Origin: Treponema sp.
GTDB lineage: Bacteria > Spirochaetota > Spirochaetia > Treponematales > Treponemataceae
DNA length: 62,383 bases
Direction: 5' to 3'
NCBI GenBank assembly: GCA_024680155.1
Contig: JAILCM010000136.1
Location: forward strand, 1 to 62,383
Under the pieces are notes generated by a model. It had not been told where the DNA came from, did no database searches, and was given only the letters and a program-made list of their open reading frames with translations. A program made the position numbers and the translations under genes. Every line of letters starts with the position of its first letter. Within the stretch, counting starts at the first letter, position 1. Below, in pieces: positions 27,666 to 34,805 of this stretch.

Positions 27666-28910
27666 CTAGAATTTTGTTGTATAACCTACATCAGCACTGA
27701 ATGCGCCGTACCACTGCGGGCTAATAAGTTTTGTAAATTCAATTTTAACCTGAGTATGCAGATTTCCCGAAAGAAATGTCGTTGATACGTATGGTGTAAG
27801 ACTTATGTTAAATTTTCCTTCAAGATTTTTTGCAAAGTCAGGACTTGAAATTGATTTTTCACCTTTAAATATTGTATAAAACGTATAATCATCCAAAGAA
27901 AATGCTGCATGACTTCCAACGCACATACTTTCACTTCCAATCAACACTCTATCCGAGAAAATGTTAGCGTTTATACCAAGCATTCCGTCTACAAATAGCA
28001 ACTGGTCAACTGTTGACTGTGGAAAACTATACAAAGAAATATGAAGATTTCCATATTTTACTTTGATTCTTGGTTCAATTAAAAGGTATACATCATCAGA
28101 AGAAAAGTTCAATGTATTTTTCTTTGGATTAAACGGAGCATTTGAAAGTCCTGCCTGAATAAAAACTCCAGTTGTAAGATTATTTCCTATAAGAAGCGTT
28201 GTTCCTGCATGCCAGTAAAGTTCGCTGAATGCAATGCTATAATCCGCATCATTTGTGATTGAAGGAGCTCCAATTCCGGCTGCAAAATCTATAGTAAAAT
28301 ATCTGGATACGAATGCAAATCTAAAGTCCGTATTTATTACATAAAATTTGTCGTCTTCGTGGTTTACATAAAAGTAGCCGCCAACAGCCAGTGGTGCATT
28401 GTGAAAACGAATTATATCAGCAATTCCAACACCAAAATGAGGGTAGAGTATTGAACCGGAAAGACCAAGCCAGCTTTCAGTCAGTTTTGAAGCTAATGGC
28501 TGAACTCCAAAATATCTTTGTAAGAAAATATCAGAACCAATCGGGTCAAAAGTTCCCATATATGCACTAAAATAGTTAGAACTTGAATCAATCTGCGAAT
28601 TCATTATTAAAGAAAGTTCGTCGATTTTGAATAAAGTTTCAGTTCCTTTAAAAATTGAATCATTAAGAATGTCGCCTGTATCTATAGAAAATTCTACGTG
28701 ACTCCATAAATGCTCGCTAAAGTTGAACTGCCCTTGAAAAAAAGCGTCAAGTGTAAGATTTGGATTATATTCTGTAGAAGTTGTATCTGTAGTGTCTGCT
28801 GCAAAATTCAATTTACCGCCAGCATAACCGCTAAAAAAAGAAATTGCGTTTATACTAATAGAAGACAGAAGCAATATTCCTGTAATCAGTATTTTTTTTA
28901 TTTTTATCAT
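27666..28910 (-). CDS. Putative outer-membrane beta-barrel protein
   Basis: About 414 residues. The ATG at 28910 (MIKIKKILITGILLLSS) follows GGAG; the track's first ATG overlaps that site and is rejected. A signal peptide ends near INAISFF. The rest is alternating amphipathic strands with frequent aromatic residues and a C-terminal TTKF, as expected of an outer-membrane barrel. There is no recognisable family motif; similar uncharacterised treponemal proteins exist. It is about 170 bp upstream of, and divergent from, cheA. Confidence 0.7.
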   Translation of the reverse strand: MIKIKKILITGILLLSSISINAISFFSGYAGGKLNFAADTTDTTSTEYNPNLTLDAFFQGQFNFSEHLWSHVEFSIDTGDILNDSIFKGTETLFKIDELSLIMNSQIDSSSNYFSAYMGTFDPIGSDIFLQRYFGVQPLASKLTESWLGLSGSILYPHFGVGIADIIRFHNAPLAVGGYFYVNHEDDKFYVINTDFRFAFVSRYFTIDFAAGIGAPSITNDADYSIAFSELYWHAGTTLLIGNNLTTGVFIQAGLSNAPFNPKKNTLNFSSDDVYLLIEPRIKVKYGNLHISLYSFPQSTVDQLLFVDGMLGINANIFSDRVLIGSESMCVGSHAAFSLDDYTFYTIFKGEKSISSPDFAKNLEGKFNISLTPYVSTTFLSGNLHTQVKIEFTKLISPQWYGAFSADVGYTTKF

Positions 28911-29044
28911 AAAAATCTCCATATTGTATAAAATACCAATTTCATTATCGGCTGTTTTTTTCTATTTCTTTATTTAAATCTGGTAATCTAAAATTTCAAA
29001 TAAAATTTAAAGATGATTAGAAAGTAAAAAAAAAAAGTTTAGGC

Positions 29045-29079
29045 TTGAAAACTCTCTGTTTCAGTATATAATGTATTCT
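29045..29079 (+). promoter_or_regulatory. cheA promoter, predicted leaderless
   Basis: TTGAAA (29045-29050), 16 bp, TATAAT (29067-29072), then seven bases to the ATG at 29080. The expected +1 is the start codon itself. The track's ATG at 29071 lies inside the -10 box, so it cannot be used from this promoter. Confidence 0.75.
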
Positions 29080-31566
29080 ATGAGCGATTATTTAGATCCT
29101 AACAATGAAGAACTGCTTAAAGACTTTTTTGCAGAAGCTGAACTTCAGGTAGAACAGCTAGAGAGTAATATTCTTGTAATAGAAAATGAGCCTACAAATC
29201 ATGAGGCTATTGATGAAATCTTCCGTGCTGCTCATACTTTGAAAGGTGGTTCTGCTACTGTCGAAATGATGGAACTTTCTCATTTTACACATTCAGTAGA
29301 AGATGTACTTGATGAAATTCGTTCTGACCGGGTTGCAGTAAATGAAGATGTTGTAGACCTTCTTCTTAGCTCTATCGATGTTATTAAAGCTATGCTAGAA
29401 GCTCGTAAGAACGGCTCTGTTTATGAAGAAAATATTGATGCTATTATAGAAAAACTTCATTCATATATTCCACAAAAAGGTGCAAAACCTGCTGCTAAAC
29501 CAGCTGCTGCTCCAAAACCGGCTCCTGTTGTTCAGCAGGCACCAGTTGTTCAGACTGCTCCGGCTCCTGCTGCTTCTGGTATGGTTCGTCCTGCACTTGC
29601 AGAAGAGGAATATCTTGAACTTAAGTCTGCTTGCGAAGGTTCTCAGAAACTTTGGTGTGTAAGTGTTAAGTTTGACGAAAGTAACCCAATGAATACTGTT
29701 GGTGGAATTCAGGTTTTTGCGGCATTAAAGACTGTAGGAAATGTTCTTAAAACAGTTCCTGATTTTGATGCTCTTTATGAAGACCAATTTTATGAAGATG
29801 TTTTCTATTATCTTGCTACAGATGCAACTTCTGAGCAGATTGAAGATGTTTCATTCCTTAGTGATGTAACATTAATTACAGATGCTTGCCAGATTACAGA
29901 TGATAATTATGCACAGGCTTCTGCTCCTGCAGCTCCAGTTCAAGCTGCTCCTGTTGCAGCTCCTTCTGCTCCTGTTTCGGCACCTGCACCTACTCAAACT
30001 TCATCTTCTAGCAATATAGACCTTATAAACGAAATTCTTTCTGATAATATAACAGAACGCAAAGAAGAACCTGCTGCTTCGGCACCTGCTTCTGCGGCTT
30101 CAGCTCCAAAAGCTCCTGCTCCAGAAAAGAAAGCTGAACCTAAAAAGGATGCTCCAGCCGCTTCTGCTCAGCATGCTCAGCAAGGTTCAATTCTTCGTGT
30201 TGATTCACGCCGAATTGATAATCTTCTTAATCTTGTTTCAGAAACTGTTATTACAAAGGCATCGTTCAACCAGCTTGCAATTCAGGCTTCTAATGAACTT
30301 ACAGTATTCCAGGGGCTTGAAGCATCGTTTAAGGAAAGACTCAGAAATCTATTTGATGATTTGCCTGATTATTTGAGCAGATTGCAAAGTGGCGATTCAA
30401 TGAACGACGTTAAAAAAGATATGCTTAAAGAATTTGGTGATTTGTCATCAACATTCGATGGTCATGAAGCAGAATTCAAAGGAATTGCAAATAAATTCCG
30501 TGCTTATACACAGAGTCTTGGTGCTGTAACAGGCGAACTTCAGGAAGGTGTAATGAAAATTCGAATGGTTCCAATCAATCAGATTTTCAGCCGCTTCCCA
30601 CGTGTTGTTCGTGATTTACAGCGTGATCTTGATAAAAAGATTGACCTTGTAATAGAAGGTGAGGATACAGAACTTGATAAGTCAGTTGTAGAAGACTTGC
30701 TTGATCCAATTATGCACTGTGTTCGTAACTCTGTAGACCATGGTATTGAAATGCCTGCTGTTCGTGCTGCTGCTGGAAAACCTGAAACTGGTACTGTTTT
30801 ACTTAAAGCTTCTAACGAAGGTAACATGATTGTTATCGAAATAAAAGATGATGGTGCCGGAATTGATGTAGAGAAGGTTAGAGCAAAGGCTATCGAACGC
30901 GGACTTATTCATCCAGATAAAAATATTACAGATCAGGATGCTTATAATCTTATTATGCAGCCAGGTTTCTCTACTGCGGCTAAGATTTCAAATATTTCGG
31001 GACGTGGTGTAGGTCTTGATGTTGTTAAGACTATGATTACGAACCTTAAGGGTAACATTTCTATTTCTTCTGCAAAAGGTAAGGGAACAACCTTTACAAT
31101 TAAGATTCCTCTTACTCTTGCAATTATTCAGGGACTTCTTGTTCGTGTTGGAAAAGAAATTTACTCTATTCCAATTGCTAACGTTATTGAAAGCCAGTGT
31201 GTTGGTCTTCAAGATATTAATCATATTGATAACTACGAAATTATGAATGTTCGTAATGAAGTTATCAGTGTGCTTCGTCTTTCAAGATTGTTCAATATTC
31301 CTGATTCTGAACAGTCTGATGAGTGCTATATCGTTATTGTCGGTTCTCAGGAAAAGAAAATCGGTGTTATGGTAGACGCTCTTATTGGTGAAGAAGACGT
31401 TGTAATTAAACCATTGCGTGATCAGTTCACAAATTCTCCTGGAATTGCGGGTGCATCTATTCTTGGAGATGGTTCTGTTTCTTTGATTATTGATGTAAGC
31501 CAGTTGCTCGAGCTTGGTGTACAGCAGGAACTTCTTGCTCAGGCTAACGAACAGATGGCAGGTTAA
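29080..31566 (+). CDS. cheA: Chemotaxis histidine kinase CheA
   Basis: 828 residues, cytoplasmic. The Hpt domain carries His52 in RAAHTLKGGSAT. A CheY-binding-like P2 region (about 170-285) is bounded by Ala/Pro-rich linkers. The dimerisation domain starts at RVDSRRIDNLLNLV and holds a long insert before ITGELQ-like sequence (VTGELQEGVMKIRM). The kinase domain shows HCVRNSVDHGIE, DDGAGI and GRGVGLDVV. A CheW-like domain ends the protein. The extended P3 region agrees with the F2-class kinases described in spirochaetes. The likely start is 29080, with a leaderless mRNA. It is the first gene of a four-gene operon; the next gene starts 15 bp after its stop. Confidence 0.96.
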   Translation: MSDYLDPNNEELLKDFFAEAELQVEQLESNILVIENEPTNHEAIDEIFRAAHTLKGGSATVEMMELSHFTHSVEDVLDEIRSDRVAVNEDVVDLLLSSIDVIKAMLEARKNGSVYEENIDAIIEKLHSYIPQKGAKPAAKPAAAPKPAPVVQQAPVVQTAPAPAASGMVRPALAEEEYLELKSACEGSQKLWCVSVKFDESNPMNTVGGIQVFAALKTVGNVLKTVPDFDALYEDQFYEDVFYYLATDATSEQIEDVSFLSDVTLITDACQITDDNYAQASAPAAPVQAAPVAAPSAPVSAPAPTQTSSSSNIDLINEILSDNITERKEEPAASAPASAASAPKAPAPEKKAEPKKDAPAASAQHAQQGSILRVDSRRIDNLLNLVSETVITKASFNQLAIQASNELTVFQGLEASFKERLRNLFDDLPDYLSRLQSGDSMNDVKKDMLKEFGDLSSTFDGHEAEFKGIANKFRAYTQSLGAVTGELQEGVMKIRMVPINQIFSRFPRVVRDLQRDLDKKIDLVIEGEDTELDKSVVEDLLDPIMHCVRNSVDHGIEMPAVRAAAGKPETGTVLLKASNEGNMIVIEIKDDGAGIDVEKVRAKAIERGLIHPDKNITDQDAYNLIMQPGFSTAAKISNISGRGVGLDVVKTMITNLKGNISISSAKGKGTTFTIKIPLTLAIIQGLLVRVGKEIYSIPIANVIESQCVGLQDINHIDNYEIMNVRNEVISVLRLSRLFNIPDSEQSDECYIVIVGSQEKKIGVMVDALIGEEDVVIKPLRDQFTNSPGIAGASILGDGSVSLIIDVSQLLELGVQQELLAQANEQMAG

Positions 31567-31580
31567 AATAGGAATTTATT

Positions 31581-33002
31581 ATGGAAGCTAATGTTGCAAC
31601 ACAGGTAATTGAAAAGGTTGAAACTATTTCTAATGCTCAGGTAAATCAGGAAAATGCGACCTTTATAGATTTCAAGATGGTAACTTTTTCTCTTGCAGAA
31701 AAGGATTACGCAATTGATATTATGCATGTAAAGGAAATTGCAAAGGCTGGTCGTTTTACTTATGTACCAAATACTTTGCCGTTTGTTCTTGGTGTATATA
31801 ATCTTCGTGGTGAAATTATTCCTATTTTGGATTTGCGTTTGTTCTTTAATATTCCTGTTCCAAAACGAACTGGTAATAAACTTGAAAATCTGCTTATCCT
31901 TAATGTTGATGATCAGAAATTTGGGCTTGTTGTAGATAAAATAGACAAGGTAGTAGGCGTTCAAAAGAGTACAATTCAGCCGCCACATCCACTTTTTGGT
32001 GATATTAACATTAAATATATTGACGGAATCGTAGAGGCTTCAAACAGACTTTATGTTTTGCTTGATGTTCTTAAGATTTTTGCGGCTAAAGAAACAAAAG
32101 AATCTGCTTCTTCTAGTTCAAAGGAACTGGAACCAAGTAAAGATGATAAATATGCAGCTCTTAGAGCAAATATGGAGAAAGCTGCTGCAGATGCGCGAAA
32201 TGCAAAAAAAGCGGCTGAACAACAGGCTGCAGCAACTCCAAAAAATGAAGATGATGGCAAATCAGCATTAAATATTAAATTTATTTCTGAAACACTTGCC
32301 AACTATAAGAAATTTTATGTTTCAAATGTAAATGACTCTTGGGTAAACCATAGATATAGTGAATGGGAAAAGGAACGAGGTGCTGATAAGACACAGCTTC
32401 AGAATGAAGGAGAGGCTGAAAGTTTCTTAAAGACCTTCTGGTCTCAGTTTACTGGTTCGTGGTGGTCAAAGGAATTTGCTCAAAGTATAAAGAATTTGCT
32501 TCCAGACAATTCTGCAAAACAGATTATTGTATGGAATCCAGGTTGTGGTAAGGGAATGGAAACTTATTCGCTTGCCTGCGTGCTTAAAGAAAAATATCCA
32601 AACTCAAGAATCAGAATTTATGCTCAGGATGTCGATTTGTTGAGCGTTTCAAATGCATCATTAATGTCTGTTCCTGCTAATTTGGCTGACGACTGGTACG
32701 GACCGTATCTTTCTAAAAAGGCAAATGGCGATTTGACATTCAATGAAGAAATTAAAGAAAGTGTAATGTTTGAATATCATGATTGTAAGAACGCAAATGC
32801 TCTTCCGATGGTTGACATTATCTTTACTCGTGATTTATTATCATTACTTGATGTTGATGCTCAGAAACTTTTGATGAATGAGTTCTTGGAAAAGATGAAA
32901 GGAAATGCAGTTGTCATTGTTGGTGAGAACGAAGCTATTCCATCATCTTTAGGTTTTGGTGAAAAAAGTGTTGGTGCTTTAGTTGCATATACAAAAGATT
33001 AA
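31581..33002 (+). CDS. CheW-CheR-like fusion chemotaxis coupling protein
   Basis: 473 residues. Residues 25-175 are a CheW domain (VTFSLAEKDYAIDIMHVKEI, LGVYNLRGEIIPILDL, quoted in part). An Ala/Lys-rich linker (about 180-225) follows, then a CheR-like methyltransferase fold (about 240-470). Its SAM loop reads WNPGCGKGMETYSLA, close to the CheR motif. Such fusions are a described hallmark of spirochaete F2 chemotaxis arrays, where the CheR-like part is thought to be structural. AGGA precedes the ATG. It is translated with cheA upstream and cheX 15 bp downstream. Confidence 0.93.
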   Translation: MEANVATQVIEKVETISNAQVNQENATFIDFKMVTFSLAEKDYAIDIMHVKEIAKAGRFTYVPNTLPFVLGVYNLRGEIIPILDLRLFFNIPVPKRTGNKLENLLILNVDDQKFGLVVDKIDKVVGVQKSTIQPPHPLFGDINIKYIDGIVEASNRLYVLLDVLKIFAAKETKESASSSSKELEPSKDDKYAALRANMEKAAADARNAKKAAEQQAAATPKNEDDGKSALNIKFISETLANYKKFYVSNVNDSWVNHRYSEWEKERGADKTQLQNEGEAESFLKTFWSQFTGSWWSKEFAQSIKNLLPDNSAKQIIVWNPGCGKGMETYSLACVLKEKYPNSRIRIYAQDVDLLSVSNASLMSVPANLADDWYGPYLSKKANGDLTFNEEIKESVMFEYHDCKNANALPMVDIIFTRDLLSLLDVDAQKLLMNEFLEKMKGNAVVIVGENEAIPSSLGFGEKSVGALVAYTKD

Positions 33003-33017
33003 AAAGGGGATAAAAAC

Positions 33018-33500
33018 ATGCGAGTAGAATACATTAACCCGTTTGTTGAGACTTCATTCCGTGTTCTTCAGGAAGTTCTTGGTGGTGCGGAAGTAAAGCG
33101 TGGCGATTTATATCTTAAATCGACTGCAATGCCTGTAATGGGAGTTGCTGCTTTGGTTGGTTTGGCAGGAGACGTTGAAGGTCGTGTTCTTTTCGATATG
33201 ACAATGGAAACTGCTTTGAACATTGCTTCTGCAATGAATGGTGAGACTTTGGCAGAGTTTGATGATCTGGCAAAGGCTACAATTAGTGAGCTTGCAAACT
33301 TGATTACTGCACAGGCAGTAACAAAGCTCCATGAACTTGGTTTTAAGTTTGACTTAACACCACCAGCATTGTTTGTTGGACAGAAAATGGAAATTGCAGC
33401 CCTTGGTGGCACTTCTGAAAATGTAGAAGCTCTTATCGTTCCATTACTTTCTGACTGTGGAAAGATTGAAGTTAATGTTGCAATACGAGAAAGAGCGTAA
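33018..33500 (+). CDS. cheX: CheY-P phosphatase CheX
   Basis: 160 residues, cytoplasmic. It dephosphorylates CheY-P in place of CheZ. The active helix reads ATISELANLITAQA, giving the E-x-x-N pair Glu91/Asn94 used for in-line hydrolysis. CheX-type phosphatases are the spirochaetal standard (Borrelia, Treponema). AAGGGGA precedes the ATG. It lies between the CheW fusion and cheY in one operon. Confidence 0.94.
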   Translation: MRVEYINPFVETSFRVLQEVLGGAEVKRGDLYLKSTAMPVMGVAALVGLAGDVEGRVLFDMTMETALNIASAMNGETLAEFDDLAKATISELANLITAQAVTKLHELGFKFDLTPPALFVGQKMEIAALGGTSENVEALIVPLLSDCGKIEVNVAIRERA

Positions 33501-33513
33501 ATAGGAGTATAAA

Positions 33514-33948
33514 ATGAAAACTACAACAGACTATCCTACAATTAATGAACGTCCGCCTGAGGGAAGAAAAGACGATGGTACTTCTTACAAAGTATTGATT
33601 GTTGACGATTCTATGTTTGTTGCTAAACAGCTTGGTCAGATTTTAACAAGTGAAGGTTACGAAGTTGTTGCAACTGCCGTAGATGGAAAAGAAGGTGTTG
33701 ATAAGTATAAAGAATTGTGTCCACAGGTAGACCTTGTAACAATGGATATTACAATGCCTAAGATGGATGGAATTACAGCTCTTGAACAGATTATGGCTTT
33801 TGATAAAAATGCAAAAGTTGTAATGGTAAGTGCTCTTGGTAAGGAAGAACTTGTTAAGAAGTCACTTATGACTGGAGCAAAAAGCTATATCATCAAGCCT
33901 CTTGACAGAAAGAAGGTTCTTGAACGCATTGCTAAGGTTTTAAGCTAG
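33514..33948 (+). CDS. cheY: Chemotaxis response regulator CheY
   Basis: 144 residues, a single receiver domain. The acidic pair is Asp31/Asp32 (VLIVDDSMF), the phosphoacceptor is Asp78 (LVTMDITMPKMDG), and the Thr/Ser and Lys positions are VMVSALG and IIKPL. An N-terminal extension of about 23 residues (TDYPTINERPPEGRK) precedes the domain and is absent from E. coli CheY. AGGAG precedes the ATG. It is the last gene of the chemotaxis operon, followed by a strong terminator. Confidence 0.96.
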   Translation: MKTTTDYPTINERPPEGRKDDGTSYKVLIVDDSMFVAKQLGQILTSEGYEVVATAVDGKEGVDKYKELCPQVDLVTMDITMPKMDGITALEQIMAFDKNAKVVMVSALGKEELVKKSLMTGAKSYIIKPLDRKKVLERIAKVLS

Positions 33949-33961
33949 TAATTTATATAAA

Positions 33962-34009
33962 TGCTGCATTTTGTAGGGGTATTCTTTATAAAATGCAGTG
34001 TTTTTTTTT
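33962..34009 (+). terminator. Terminator of the chemotaxis operon
   Basis: TGCTGCATTTTGTA pairs with TATAAAATGCAGTG (14 pairs including three G-U) and is followed by nine T residues. Confidence 0.88.
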
Positions 34010-34070: not shown

Positions 34071-34805
34071 TTAGTAAATTCGGAATTCAATTCCGTCTAA
34101 TTTGTTTATAATCACAAAATTGTACTTCTCGTATTTCTTAATTAATGTTCTAAGTTGGGATATATGCACTTTCAGAGATGCTGTTGAAATCTTTCTGTAG
34201 TGTTTAGAATATCTATTCTGCAAATCTTCAAATGTAATTGTATTATCTTTGTATTCAAATAGAATTTGTAAAAGATAAAATAGATTGTTTGGCATGTTAG
34301 ATTCGGCTTTGAATTCGTAAATAATGTTTGGAGAATTTGTTTCTATTACGTGACCAAAATAACTGGAATGCCGCATGTATTCTGGAATTGGCGTTGGCTG
34401 CTGCATAAGTTTGATGTATGGCCTAAGTTCATTCGATTCTATTGTTGATTCAATTACTTTAAGCGCATTTTTTAGTTCTTCACTGGAAAAATCCATATTA
34501 TCTGGGTAAAAACTTTCCAGAAAATGCAGCCAATATTGAGTTCTGGTTGGTGCAATAATACATGGATCATTGTAAAATATTAATGGAATTGGTCTTTTGT
34601 TTGCAAACATAAAATCATATACATTAAATTGATTGTGATTGTAAACTAAGTAATCAAGGACAAGTAAATCTGGTGGATTAATCATATTTGAAACTGCGTT
34701 GTAAACTAAATCTTGTCTTGTAAAAATGTAACAGGAATGTTGGGGTAATTTTTCGGCAATTATATGACAAATTTCTGGCTGTGTCGTATAAAAAATAATT
34801 ATCAT
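34071..34805 (-). CDS. Atypical response regulator with OmpR-type winged helix
   Basis: 244 residues. Residues 1-110 look like a receiver domain (PPDLLVLDYLVYN keeps an Asp), but the acidic pair expected after strand 1 is absent (IIIFYTTQPE), so normal Mg-dependent phosphorylation is doubtful. Residues 170-244 end in a trans_reg_C-like winged helix (TASLKVHISQLRTLIKKY, then FVIINKLDGIEFRIY). It is probably a DNA-binding regulator of unknown input. It has no Shine-Dalgarno; the promoter predicts a leaderless mRNA. It is convergent with cheY and divergent from malQ. Confidence 0.75.
   Translation of the reverse strand: MIIIFYTTQPEICHIIAEKLPQHSCYIFTRQDLVYNAVSNMINPPDLLVLDYLVYNHNQFNVYDFMFANKRPIPLIFYNDPCIIAPTRTQYWLHFLESFYPDNMDFSSEELKNALKVIESTIESNELRPYIKLMQQPTPIPEYMRHSSYFGHVIETNSPNIIYEFKAESNMPNNLFYLLQILFEYKDNTITFEDLQNRYSKHYRKISTASLKVHISQLRTLIKKYEKYNFVIINKLDGIEFRIY

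Follow-up and report, generated by a model that had tools for sequence, protein, structure and literature searches.

In this Treponema, a promoter stands almost directly before the start codon of the chemotaxis kinase gene cheA, and the mRNA most probably begins at the AUG or 1 to 2 nucleotides (nt) before it; the 5'-terminal AUG would then recruit the ribosome, while the partner genes of the operon would be led by Shine-Dalgarno (SD) sites. The position of the promoter, the lack of an SD site, an ATG in every locus, conservation across most of the class, and SD sites at the downstream genes were observed directly. From these we infer the exact +1, a leaderless (70S-type) mode of initiation, and selection for a functional reason. 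A leader of 1 to 2 nt and no leader at all leave the same sequence signature, so the predicted start carries this margin. The relevant features of the window, by which we mean the whole stretch of 62,383 nt that was analyzed, are the following.

27666-28922, minus strand: divergent gene upstream of cheA
29045-29050, plus strand: -35 hexamer TTGAAA of the cheA promoter (promoter scan; kept in relatives)
29067-29072, plus strand: -10 hexamer TATAAT (promoter scan; conservation anchored on the -10)
29073-29079, plus strand: discriminator of 7 nt, GTATTCT, with T at -1 relative to the ATG
29080-29082, plus strand: cheA start codon ATG and predicted leaderless transcription start (ATG conservation)
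29080-31566, plus strand: cheA, complete, 828 amino acids, with Hpt, P2, dimerization, HATPase, and CheW domains (Pfam)
31570-31573, plus strand: SD site (AGGA) of cheW-cheR
31581-33002, plus strand: CheW-CheR fusion gene (Pfam)
33004-33009, plus strand: SD-like AAGGGG of cheX
33018-33500, plus strand: cheX (Pfam)
33503-33507, plus strand: SD site AGGAG of cheY
33514-33948, plus strand: cheY (Pfam)
33959-34003, plus strand: terminator-like hairpin with a T run, end of the che operon

The region from 29040 to 29090 reads taggcTTGAAAactctctgtttcagtaTATAATgtattctATGAGCGAT. Within it, positions 29045 to 29082 form the string TTGAAA-N16-TATAAT-GTATTCT-ATG, with a spacer of 16 nt and a gap of 7 nt between the -10 hexamer and the ATG. 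The site matched a sigma-70-type promoter (-35 and -10 hexamers spaced by 16 to 18 nt) at 11 of 12 positions and was the joint best, with one other site, in a scan of 12 kb (24 to 36 kb). As expected for a leaderless mRNA, the -10 element lies directly 5' of the start codon, and no SD-like string was found 4 to 17 nt upstream of the ATG. The usual distance from a -10 element to +1 is 6 to 7 nt, which would put the transcription start of cheA at 29079 or 29080. The combination T(-1)/A(+1) is a favored initiator, and A29080 has a T before it. A preliminary description of this DNA had placed the promoter seven bases before the ATG at 29080, had reported the lack of an SD site, and had stated that the only alternative ATG overlaps the -10 box. 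The sequence and the promoter scan agree with the coordinates, and the other two statements were borne out as well: the only other in-frame ATG is at 29071, and a TGA at 29014 closes the frame.

The gene content and order, as judged by Pfam domains, are those of the spirochete che operon of the cheA-cheW-cheX-cheY type, with CheW fused to CheR: a single 473-amino-acid protein joins CheW to a CheR methyltransferase domain (31581 to 33002). The claim that the other genes have normal ribosome sites and that cheA alone depends on leaderless initiation was correct with regard to these sites, both in the window (AGGA, AAGGGG, and AGGAG) and across relatives. In the same set of loci, an SD site was present at 50/60 cheW-cheR, 77/79 cheX, and 21/21 cheY genes but at only 6 of 116 nonredundant cheA loci, when a 4-mer or better was counted as an SD. 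Conversely, a promoter of at least 9/12 at the leaderless distance was found at 86/116 cheA genes versus 1/60 for cheW-cheR, 1/79 for cheX, and 0/21 for cheY. The cheW-cheR and cheX genes of relatives also start with GTG or TTG, unlike cheA. The assembly yielded no 16S tail for the organism itself, and the anti-SD was assumed to be standard, as supported by the downstream SD sites.

To follow the arrangement across relatives, we gathered cheA loci from named genomes as well as from further genomes sampled at the levels of genus, family, and class, and redundancy was cut at 85% identity, although the relatives are still not independent samples. Among 150 nonredundant loci of the class, 107 carried a promoter of at least 9/12 with the -10 hexamer ending 5 to 9 nt before the ATG, versus 1 to 6 of 150 at six other, control distances. 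With a threshold of at least 10/12, the numbers were 80/150 at 5 to 9 nt and at most 1/150 at the control distances. The gap from the -10 to the ATG was 6 to 8 nt in all 38 loci of the own genus and its nearest relatives and in 34/38 of a further family set, and mostly 6 to 9 nt in termite-gut treponemes; in one family locus (L160), which scored 8, TTGACC and a weaker -10 hexamer were similarly placed. The other families of the class mostly showed gaps of 9 to 10 nt and some of 14 nt or more. These longer gaps point to short leaders there, so that strict leaderlessness would be a property of the family and not of the whole class.

The start codon was ATG in 197/197 loci, in keeping with the AUG preference of leaderless mRNAs. 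The base at -1 was T in 44/44 nonredundant close relatives and in 72% of distant loci (80% overall, against a background of 33%); a T before the ATG fits initiation of transcription on the A of the start codon. Homologues throughout the class aligned with the product of the 29080 start from its first residue onward and began with MSDYLD or nearly so. The 5' end of cheA was weakly folded (an average of -3.4 kcal/mol for the first 40 nt versus -6.6 internally), although low 5' structure and a preference for ATG are also frequent in ordinary genes. Beyond -50 the DNA was barely conserved in the distant set, at about 0.04 to 0.11 bit per site. Since the promoter keeps a constant place relative to the ATG while its flanks have diverged, the conserved object is a promoter tied to the start codon that leaves no space for an SD site. 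Taken together, promoter position, SD absence, ATG, and T(-1) across relatives strongly support the proposal of a leaderless cheA made in the preliminary description.

Conservation in the promoter (29044 to 29072) extended beyond the hexamers. A C precedes TTGA, most distant relatives have TTGAC at the -35 position where the window has TTGAAA, and TTGACTTA is present in many distant relatives; in the own genus, TTTTCGG in the spacer is also conserved. The additional bases are possibly a regulator site. Codon 2 of cheA (29083 to 29085) was AGY in 117/117 loci versus 29% AGY among the serine codons of these genes overall. As a signal linked to leaderlessness it was dropped, because AGY also occurs in four loci without a leaderless promoter (L157, L181, L190, and L191).

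The arrangement was absent from some class loci, among them these four, L159, and L194. In the same four, the nearest upstream gene is codirectional. The gene upstream of cheA is divergent in most loci with the near-ATG promoter. In another locus (L189), an SD site lies within a short leader of cheA. Sampled cheA orthologues from outside the class mostly had SD-like strings, such as AGGAG, AAGGAG, GGAGAG, and AAGGGG, and no promoter near the ATG. The simplest reading of this distribution would be that cheA turned near-leaderless in an ancestor of most of the class and strictly leaderless within the family, with a change in a few lineages. The leaderless cheA is thus very probably real and derived, as judged from these comparisons.

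Three other explanations of the pattern were weighed. The mRNA might carry a longer, SD-less leader of the S1/A-rich type, made from an unrecognized upstream promoter, with the near-ATG motif minor or inactive. The region upstream of cheA is indeed A-rich, and bacteria do have SD-less genes with leaders (PMC5397173). However, between cheA and the divergent gene the promoter scan gave no second candidate on the plus strand, sequence well beyond the -35 is not conserved in distant relatives, and it is the position of the promoter relative to the ATG, not the flanking DNA, that has been kept. We consider such a leader unlikely. Translation from the ATG at 29071 (29071 to 29073, plus strand), which would add three residues at the N terminus, has in its favor that no other ATG of the open frame precedes this in-frame codon. 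It lies within the -10 box, though, and would be absent from a transcript of this promoter; moreover, it is not conserved, most relatives having TATAATA, and in homologues from outside the class the start codon corresponds to 29080 and mostly follows an SD-like site. A start at 29071 is therefore extremely improbable.

The closeness of promoter and ATG could also be an accident, or a result of compact intergenic DNA, and mean nothing for translation. AT-rich DNA does produce such matches, and promoters at this distance precede about 2 to 3% of sampled genes. Against this, a match of at least 11/12 at this distance had a P of about 5 × 10^-5 for the window alone (dinucleotide shuffle of the 157-nt intergenic region), and the arrangement was kept in over 100 diverged loci, far above the control distances. 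Nor is the intergenic region, at 157 nt, compact, and the divergent upstream gene in most such loci does not fit this explanation either. An accidental placement of this kind is very unlikely, and pure chance is already excluded by the conservation, while a neutral history of retention of the near-ATG promoter is still compatible with it.

The background frequency came from 271 kb of the organism's own sequence (20 contigs and the window) and, for relatives, two samples of 400 kb. Promoters of at least 10/12 located 5 to 8 nt before gene starts numbered 10 in the own genome (other bins, 0 to 8), 12 in G132 (0 to 9), and only 4 in G109. The perfect leaderless-type pattern occurred 13 times in the own genome sample versus 4 times for a reversed control. 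These counts suggest that roughly 2 to 3% of sampled genes may be leaderless, a rough figure given that gene starts were called mechanically. One of them is smpB (L260/L273; C19:22482-22943), with TTGAAA-17-TATAAT-6-ATG and no SD site; the architecture was kept in 24/28 nonredundant family loci, and an SD was present in 1/28. Perfect promoters of this type were also found at L265, L267, L271, and L272, with products that are an xpt-like phosphoribosyltransferase, an ankyrin-type protein, a FAD-dependent enzyme, and a sensor kinase. The names of smpB and of the xpt-like, sensor kinase, and FAD-dependent genes were assigned by eye from translations. As a further gene with conserved leaderlessness, xpt was rejected, because the results were mixed, with the architecture in only 4/13 loci. 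In the window itself, the genes at 34071 to 34805 (minus strand) and 38315 (plus strand) have a full TATAAT 5 to 8 nt before the ATG and a weaker -35 (4/6). By its architecture, cheA is thus a member of a small set of putatively leaderless genes and not unique.

In the leaderless reading of cheA, the housekeeping (sigma-70-type) RNA polymerase would transcribe the che operon from TTGAAA-16-TATAAT, and the transcript would open with the cheA AUG or with at most 1 to 2 nt before it. Ribosomes would engage the 5'-terminal AUG of cheA directly, like those on other leaderless mRNAs, and cheW-cheR, cheX, and cheY would be translated through SD sites further along that RNA. Possibly, the putative leaderless start sets the ratio of kinase to coupler or senses conditions that favor 70S initiation, as had been proposed in the preliminary description. 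More far-reaching is the idea of a selected, class-wide translational control point, at which CheA output is governed through 5'-AUG/70S initiation apart from its SD-led partners and which, with the gene of the ribosome rescue factor SmpB in the same set, couples chemotaxis signaling to the condition of the translation apparatus; we regard this as doubtful.

Leaderless genes are usually published as lists for single genomes, and long-term retention at a single gene has seldom been shown. Here, cheA seems to have passed from an SD-led state, as seen outside the class, to a near-leaderless or leaderless one within it, which has persisted over most of the class. Because its operon partners kept their SD sites, the che operon is a natural setting in which to compare two modes of initiation within a single transcript, and the leaderless start is a clear prediction that can be tested in culturable treponemes. 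Our search of the open literature found no leaderless cheA and no transcription start site map for Treponema; the older papers on the che operons of T. pallidum and T. denticola lay outside the search and may contain promoter mapping.

Model leaderless mRNAs, such as that of phage lambda cI, have a 5'-terminal AUG and no SD site and initiate in the 70S-type manner. The cheA mRNA resembles that of cI in its predicted 5'-terminal AUG and in the absence of an SD, but it differs in that cheA opens a chemotaxis operon in which the other genes are SD-led. On the genome scale, leaderless genes were predicted in 6 of 18 spirochete genomes, at an average of 3.9% of genes (PMC3160421), which is close to the 2 to 3% estimated here; Treponema does not appear in the main text of that study, which thus makes no gene-level statement on treponemal cheA. 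That spirochetes make leaderless mRNAs is established: in Leptospira interrogans, differential RNA-seq identified about 440 of them, with untranslated regions of under 10 nt, and motility genes were underrepresented among the leaderless genes at 37°C (PMC5243855). The L. interrogans mRNAs were mapped by experiment, genome-wide, and in another spirochete lineage, whereas the cheA start is predicted from sequence; the two cases are alike in that both concern spirochete transcripts that start at, or within a few nucleotides of, the start codon.
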